37,704 nt of DNA. It comes from an uncultured Bacteroidia bacterium (GTDB lineage Bacteria > Bacteroidota > Bacteroidia > Bacteroidales > UBA932). The DNA lies in assembly GCA_902778105.1 (NCBI GenBank), contig CACYWN010000023.1, positions 1-37,704 of the forward strand, given 5' to 3'. Below the pieces are notes generated by a model. That model did no database searches. It was not told the DNA's origin and saw only the letters and a program-made list of their open reading frames with translations. Both the position numbers and the translations under genes were made by a program. This document shows, one piece after another, positions 13,785 to 14,654 of this stretch (position 1 is its first letter; each line of letters starts with the position of its first letter).

Positions 13785-14654
13785 TTAGGCGTTCCGCTGA
13801 CGGACGGCCTCGAAGAGGAGGATGGCGGTGGAGACGGAGACGTTGAGGCTGTCCAGGTGGCCGAGCATCGGGATGCGGATGTGCGCATCCGCAGCGTCCC
13901 GCCAGATCTGGGTGAGGCCGGTGGACTCCGTGCCCATCACCAGGGCCGTGCCCACGGTCATATCCACGTTATAATACCAGGACGAATCCTGCAGCTGGGC
14001 GGTGAGGATGCGGATTCCGTGGGCCTTGAGCCAGGCGATGGTCTCCTCCGAGGAGGCCGCGACCGTGGGCACCGTGAAGATGCCGCCTAGGCTCGCGCGG
14101 ATGAGATTCGGGTTCCACAGGTCCGTGAGCGGATCGCAGACGATGACCGCGTCGGCCCGGGCGGCGTCCGCGCTGCGGAGCACGGCGCCCAGGTTCCCCG
14201 GCTTCTCCACCGCCTCCAGCACGACGACGAGCGGATTCTCCGGCAGGTCCAGGTCTTCCAGGCCGATGTTCCGGCACTCCACCTCGGCGATGATCCCTTC
14301 CGTGCTTTCCCGATACGCGACCTTCCGGTACAGCGCTTCGGGGATTTCGATGACGAGCGGATCACCGGCGAGATTCTTTCGTCGGCCTCCGGCCTCCTCA
14401 GACTGACAGGTGAATGTCGTTCCGGACGAAATGTCCTTTGTCATTCCGAGCGAAGCGAAGGAATCTTCCCCCGCCACCTCCGGGCACACGAACACCGTCC
14501 GGACGGTGAAGCCCGCTTCCAGGCAGTGCTCCAGCTCGCGCCGGCCTTCCACCACGAAAAGACCCTGCTCCCGCCGCGCCCTGGATTTTTCCTGCAGCAG
14601 GAGCAGATGCTTGATTTTCGGATTCTGCGCCGATGTGACCTGTTCGGTTTTCAA
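13785..14654 (-). CDS. TrmH/SpoU-family RNA 2'-O-methyltransferase with in-frame repeat insertion
   Basis: A SAM-dependent RNA ribose methyltransferase. The N-terminal substrate-binding domain ([14 protein letters not shown] start, then [10 protein letters not shown] at 31-40) is followed by the SPOUT knot domain with [41 protein letters not shown] and [13 protein letters not shown] as motifs 1-3. Residues 63-94 are entirely encoded by a 96-base dispersed repeat, lying at the end of the N-terminal domain just before the conserved [17 protein letters not shown]. The start is TTG at 14654, overlapping the lysS stop as TTGA; no ATG is available. The RNA substrate cannot be told from sequence. 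Confidence 0.92.
14371..14466. repeat. Dispersed palindromic element C inside a coding region
   Basis: An inverted composite of two units: 14371-14408 begins AGATTCTTTCGTCGG and has core GGCC-TCC-GGCC; 14439-14466 begins TGTCATTCCGAGCGAAGCG and ends GAATCT. The total of 96 bases is 32 codons, so the methyltransferase frame is kept. The encoded residues run from E63 to N94 and include SFASLGMTK and [11 protein letters not shown]. Confidence 0.92.

Follow-up and report, generated by a model that had tools for sequence, protein, structure and literature searches.

The window, by which is meant the whole stretch of 37,704 nucleotides that was analysed, contained a TrmH/SpoU-family RNA 2'-O-methyltransferase gene on the minus strand (13785–14654), with a TTG start at 14654, its end at 13785 and a product of 289 amino acids. 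Directly upstream on the same strand was a lysyl-tRNA synthetase gene with a class II synthetase domain (lysS, 14651–16168), which overlapped the start of trmH. Within trmH lay a composite palindromic element (14371–14466, minus strand), a head-to-head dimer in which a diverged unit of the 38-base type, with its head reading TGTCAGTC (unit A, 14371–14408, minus), was separated by a spacer of 30 bases between the two heads (14409–14438) from a unit of the 28-base type, TGTCATTCCGAGCGAAGCGAAGGAATCT (unit B, 14439–14466, plus). On the minus strand the element was stop-free through trmH, from the third base of codon 63 to the second base of codon 95. An earlier note on this DNA had described a composite of two inverted units, 96 bases in all and in frame inside the TrmH gene, and this description held. 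The 96-base element matched 57 places in its own genome (BLAST, E up to 10). Taken alone, the window copy was weakly palindromic (DNA fold -16.0 kcal/mol, z = -1.39; 14 of 200 shuffles folded equally well), and its loop had an inverted-repeat score of 8, where the maximum of 40 shuffles was 9; the claim for this copy is therefore carried by its membership of a palindromic family, and not by its own fold.

Both the SpoU_methylase domain and the fold placed the host protein in the TrmH/SpoU family. Among Pfam matches, SpoU_methylase covered residues 142–281 (PF00588, E = 3.6e-37) and MRM3-like_sub_bind covered residues 11–123; since the latter profile has 84 positions and was spread over 113 residues, the window TrmH was estimated to have about 30 extra residues. 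The insert lay within the small N-terminal domain. When compared with a solved relative (4x3l), the aligned stretches ended at residue 64 and resumed at 94, with a single 4x3l residue between them. An AlphaFold model, built from 53 sequences (the window and 52 loci), had a mean pLDDT of 86, reaching 90 or more in 198 of 289 residues and falling below 50 at residues 73–95; its best PDB match in Foldseek was RlmR (9h1k, E = 3.8e-27), with 1ipa also among the best. Catalytic-domain positions were invariant across the 53 aligned orthologues, the window copy included. With a confident fold outside the insert and low pLDDT within it, the enzyme looks intact, with the 32-residue insert predicted to be a disordered loop. 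To judge by the open frame, the extra residues are probably translated.

The repeat family was defined by the search pattern TGTCATTC-N14..26-GAATCT, with the reversed pattern as a control. The draft assembly (2.66 Mb in 48 contigs, 84% complete) contained 76 exact units and no control hits. Units had the form TGTC-ATTC(C/T)...(G/A)GAAT-CT and ended in a CTN tail; 52 of 76 were 28 bases long, the rest being 32–39 bases with a variable inner hairpin. The first variable pair was C-G in 55 units, T-A in 20 and an unpaired C/A in one, and the inner stems also showed matching changes; these paired changes indicate base pairing within the unit, as DNA or RNA. Close pairs were arranged head to head: counted by eye, this held in the window genome for all 12 pairs with a separation below 120 bases, and for all 5 in a second species, G256. 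The head began with T, and not C, in all 45 units of 30 loci found by BLAST, while one unit in the window had a CGTC head (at 25811).

Other copies in the window had been described as intergenic, and so they proved, except that two overlapped the last two bases of a stop codon. These were a 38-base unit (5992–6029, minus), which overlapped the preceding stop codon in this way, and the minus-strand unit with the CGTC head in a head-to-head pair at 25774–25852. Two further units stood at 6037–6103 (plus), one with a variant end (6037–6063/4) and one exact (6076–6103); another head-to-head pair occupied 22949–22976 (minus) and 23026–23063 (plus), and a single 38-base unit lay at 36719–36756 (minus). 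A 24-base inverted repeat, also intergenic and outside this family, was present at 32789–32850, its arms being 96% complementary and separated by 14 bases. Beyond the window genome, G256 had 59 units and no control hits. In 200 genomes drawn from the genus, at least one pattern hit occurred in 140, against a control total of 6; many of these genomes had 1–4 hits, some of them chance-like and non-palindromic, and others had 30–76.

Loci around all 76 units were segmented with a simple home-made codon model trained on the window genes. This showed coding sequence on both sides of the unit on one strand in 36 cases, on different strands in 2, on one side in 24 and on neither in 14. One frame ran throughout in 25 of the 36 two-sided cases, from which L024 (unit before the start codon) and L182 (stop inside) were dropped, leaving 23 of 76 units in frame within 20 genes. 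The other 11 two-sided units sat at gene-gene junctions, where the upstream frame stopped shortly before the unit or at it; accordingly, no in-gene frameshift was found among the 36. In 15 of the 20 genes, the insert was spanned, or flanked on both sides, by Pfam matches. Hosts with Pfam matches included trmH, a citrate-lyase-ligase gene, murE, murB, atpG, folA, metH, dapF, mnmG, carA and a class I tRNA synthetase gene that we take to be ileS, as well as genes for an ABC-F-like ATPase, rnfC, a sufE/FeS-assembly fusion, a sufD-like gene, an M16 peptidase, an alpha-2-macroglobulin and a 4Fe-4S membrane protein, where the finer names from the ABC-F-like ATPase onwards are presumed. Two-sided support was lacking for five: in murB the Pfam match began at about the insert, in rnfC the unit fell in the last 12 residues, and in the sufD-like gene it was near the N end, directly behind an ATPase gene, with the profile matched only from position 74; neither of the other two, L121 and L177, matched any Pfam profile, and the identities proposed for them (GH88-like and transglutaminase-like respectively) were dropped on that account.

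One reading frame of the unit, VIPSEAKES, was used by 13 of the 23 in-gene units (p = 1.6e-5 for at least 13 in one given frame of six, uncorrected for the choice of the commonest frame). Of the 59 units in G256, 30 were examined; 8 were in one frame, 2 of these were dropped for the same reasons (before the start, or stop inside) and 6 kept, and 3 two-sided units were not in one frame. The kept units included a homologue of L121 (L444) with its unit at about the same place, and so some in-gene insertions appear, from this shared position, to be older than the split between the window genome and G256.

Several in-gene hosts had further peculiarities. In the sufE fusion gene (L119) the unit was placed exactly in the linker between the SufE and FeS-assembly domains, and the fusion may be connected with the element. 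DapF (L028) contained second, different repeat-like peptides, LRQAQGP...ELVEGP/VEP, twice, and AtpG (L019) a second, different peptide, SGTYARIEP...GWSRSDAEE, resembling the F4 repeats described below. Direct half-unit arrays were seen in some in-gene inserts (L039, L168, L017, L205), such as APRDDNNEG three times in the TrmH of G006 and a CHTEDLNPS-like array in that of G263.

Empty or half-empty sites were available for two genes. FolA of G256, 96% identical to that of the window genome, read AAD-GGKAF and was empty at the insert site. The same loop held one unit in G319, another hairpin-like peptide in G088 and G298 and no recognised unit-like peptide in G241, G389 and G093, and 23 more distant FolA sequences had a short conserved loop. 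In carA the window genome had two units where G241 (97% identical) and G256 (95%) had one, a clean difference of 33 bases; CarA of G088 also carried a unit at the site. No target-site duplication, of the kind expected of a MITE, was seen at either of these two sites. Presence, absence and the one- or two-unit state therefore vary between close species.

At E values up to 1e-10, and with paralogues counted, the TrmH protein had matches in 398 of 400 genomes within the genus. Of 129 loci passed to the parser, 115 yielded a readable loop, 114 of them belonging to the genus and one to a different family within the order, and the 14 that did not parse were left out of the counts; because listings were ordered by E-value, this sample leans towards close relatives. 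Loops were labelled by pattern, which was partly wrong, and 12 rows were then set by hand before the tree was made, with the sequences in view and no blind rule: L038 and L195 as none, L206, L217, L230 and L236 as F2, L194 as F1, L145 as F4, L199 as F6, L213 as F3, and L197 and L228 as palindromes of no family. On these labels, 67 of 115 loops carried repeats or palindromes and 48 carried no label. The labelled loops represented six families, with two families side by side in five loops, plus the two palindromes of no family. Inserts from 15 genomes all matched elsewhere in their own genome among the matches listed, that of G319 weakly (E = 0.001). The GTCAT head was absent from other loop families, for example from the F4–F6 cores, and the loop peptides were unrelated between species.

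On a TrmH tree built without the loop, the labels required 37 changes, compared with a shuffled mean of 62.1, and were thus clustered. Three sister pairs differed in family, namely G256 (F1) and G241 (F4), G318 (F2) and G346 (F5), and G062 (F1) and G385 (F2), with support of 100/89, 99/82 and 100/87 respectively, the bootstrap being not fully settled. Unit A was common to the window genome and G256 at the same place, while the partner units differed. Of the 115 orthologues, 30 had a strong inverted repeat centred in the loop and none had one in either the N or the C part of trmH, while 4 had one in the 300 bases upstream of the gene and 8 in the 300 bases downstream. The loop was thus occupied by several unrelated palindrome families in different species, and it was concluded from these comparisons that it has probably been one site of repeated insertion, replacement and stacking. 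The earlier note was only partly borne out here: the composite, its frame and its multi-copy nature stood, but its statement that close relatives have a short loop did not, since other palindromes or repeats occupied that loop in most of the closest orthologues. Among the orthologues compared, none from a close relative was truly empty at this loop, and the insertion into trmH was for that reason not seen directly.

The F4 repeats had a distinctive structure. In 15 copies (L248, L252–L255, L258–L260, L263–L265, L268–L270 and L273) a core of about 38 bases was conserved and the arms were copy-specific: mean pairing was 0.96 between the two arms of one copy (lowest value 0.83) and 0.59 between arms taken from different copies, and left arms were 0.51 identical, compared with 0.84 for the cores. 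In orthologous copies from G319 and G241, within atpG and a folC-like gene with a Mur-ligase domain, both arms had changed together around an identical 38-base core, and the changes altered amino acids on both sides.

A mobiliser was sought among REP-associated tyrosine transposases (RAYTs), genes for which are present in this genome. The trmH-element family flanked none of 7 Y1_Tnp loci in the 84% complete assembly, which does not support a RAYT as its mobiliser; at two of these loci a unit lay roughly 1 kb off, with other palindromes in between. All seven Y1-type loci (L358–L364) had at least one inverted repeat (score of at least 11) in the fetched flanks, and these palindromes differed by locus. 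One such gene, at 7005–7865 of the window, had its own palindromes on both sides (6908–6996 and 8003–8091; GATGGTGGTCC...), a third copy of which stood at 13659–13747, between trmH and the next gene. The possibility that the element belongs to a known RNA family was also rejected, as the two weak matches in 13600–16200 were both below the gathering score and both at 13664–13776, away from the element. The exact 28-base unit had no matches in viral_contigs, and the 96-base element had none in the 'plasmids' set at E = 1e-5.

Comparisons with known systems refer to the portions of the cited papers that were available. CGTC-tagged REPs are reported from Bacteroidetes among five phyla, with some units in frame inside ORFs (PMC3733652), and palindromes inserted in frame have been described in Rickettsia and in several further bacteria (PMC3733652, PMC10969869). 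The present units resemble CGTC-tagged REPs (PMC3733652) in being short palindromes with an unpaired NGTC head and a stem starting with complementary AT, although ATTC...GAAT was fixed by the search pattern itself; in their head-to-head pairing (seen here in all 17 close pairs); in the absence of a flanking transposase gene (0/7); and in being intragenic in part (23/76). They differ in their head (T in the 45 BLAST-found units, C in one window unit), in a CT rather than a CCA tail, and in an interrupted stem with a variable inner hairpin instead of a stem of 8–9 bp and a loop of 4–5 bases. As head and tail differ, membership of the CGTC superfamily is not claimed. With RPE-4, RPE-6 and RPE-7 (PMC3767692, PMC2229807, PMC10969869) they share the ATGAC motif, equivalent to the GTCAT head and present in all 76 units, the entry into conserved ORFs with the frame kept, and the occurrence of different element groups at or near one place in orthologous genes. 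Unlike the Rickettsia elements, their host is a rumen Bacteroidales genus, and six families share one loop, most of them without the ATGAC head. REPIN/RAYT systems likewise comprise inverted REPs in pairs, scattered palindromes that carry no genes, but the present family lacks a GTAG head, and the RAYT genes of this genome are flanked by other palindromes. CGTC-tagged REPs and RPE-4/6/7 were thus, in the material available, the best reading of the nearest architecture.

The closest precedent for shared occupation was recB of Xanthomonas campestris and X. oryzae, where different REPs occur at about the same site (PMC3733652); that case concerns one place in two species, against 67 of 115 loops and six families here. 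A text search of the literature with the unit sequence gave no match, and a search on palindromes in Cryptobacteroides or Bacteroidetes, with subscription papers outside its scope, gave no title on in-gene repeats there among the papers listed. While in-frame REPs and RPEs are already known, the literature available offered no counterpart to a single site occupied on such a scale by unrelated families. The likeness to Rickettsia elements suggested in the earlier note, that of a multi-copy palindrome in frame in a conserved gene, was supported by the census, by folA and carA and by the tree of the TrmH loop.

These observations are best explained, with a probability of roughly 0.85, by a dispersed, REP-like palindrome family whose copies spread and persist in genes wherever frame and fold survive, with permissive loops as recurrent landing sites and the added peptide tolerated. 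Copies are found both in intergenic DNA and, in frame, within conserved genes. Single units or pairs would be copied to new places by some machinery, perhaps one that acts on a single-stranded hairpin, and an insertion into a gene would be retained only if it left the frame open and placed its peptide in a flexible part of the protein. Under such a filter flexible loops would act as recurrent sites of landing and turnover, and the peptide would be tolerated rather than useful. Whether the TrmH loop is a hotspot in a stricter sense is more doubtful. Unrelated families might be steered to the loop, or to a hairpin already present, so that the loop is rebuilt every few speciations across the genus from whichever repeats are current, possibly with a hairpin in the lysS-trmH transcript being favoured; this seems a rather unlikely extension.

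It is improbable that a hairpin of any sequence is selected at this loop, for instance as a stability or attenuation element of the lysS-trmH mRNA, with lineages swapping palindromes. Such selection would fit the two TrmH clades in which nearly all rows carried a palindrome or repeat (31/35, support 92/96, and 9/11, support 98/90), the confinement of strong inverted repeats within trmH to the loop (30/115 against 0/115) and the covariation of unit pairs. Yet 48 of 115 orthologue loops had no labelled repeat or palindrome, folA and carA were colonised similarly, and several loops, the window's included, folded no better than shuffles; the co-change of arms around the identical 38-base core in the two orthologous F4 copies (atpG and folC-like), which might also be cited for selection, could also have come from hairpin-templated mutation. 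Function may alternatively reside in the peptide, as a domesticated part of the enzyme. The frame bias described above (13/23, p = 1.6e-5 before correction for the commonest frame) points in this direction but would arise just as readily if one reading, hydrophilic and free of stops, were tolerated best; with loop peptides unrelated between species and an insert predicted to be disordered, domestication is very unlikely.

A single ancient insertion that diverged in place in each lineage is the option favoured for RPE-4/6/7, where a hotspot and a common origin were weighed and the authors lean to the latter (PMC3767692, in the part available). It would account for the agreement of unit A in position and sequence between the window genome and G256, and for neighbouring species often sharing a family, as in the F2 and F3 clades. 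However, the loop families differ in their cores and mostly occur in multiple copies within their own genome, which is not expected from divergence in place; sister species differ in family, and in five loops two families stand next to each other. This explanation was already disfavoured and is given very little credence. A decayed gene copy or an assembly artefact, conceivable in a draft of 48 contigs and 84% completeness, is barely credible when the frame is open throughout, catalytic-domain positions are invariant in 53 orthologues, the fold is confident outside the insert and inserts recur at the same loop in the assemblies of other species. Six loop families with different cores, mostly multi-copy, mostly without the ATGAC head and differing between sisters, favour repeated insertion and replacement, and hence a hotspot rather than common origin for this genus, so far as sequence comparison can indicate.

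The dispersed palindrome family thus bears on the question of hotspot or common origin left from Rickettsia (PMC3767692, in the portion available). The annotations of these rumen genomes contain many proteins with repeat-derived segments, and the family provides a natural experiment that can show where in a protein a loop will take up a foreign peptide.
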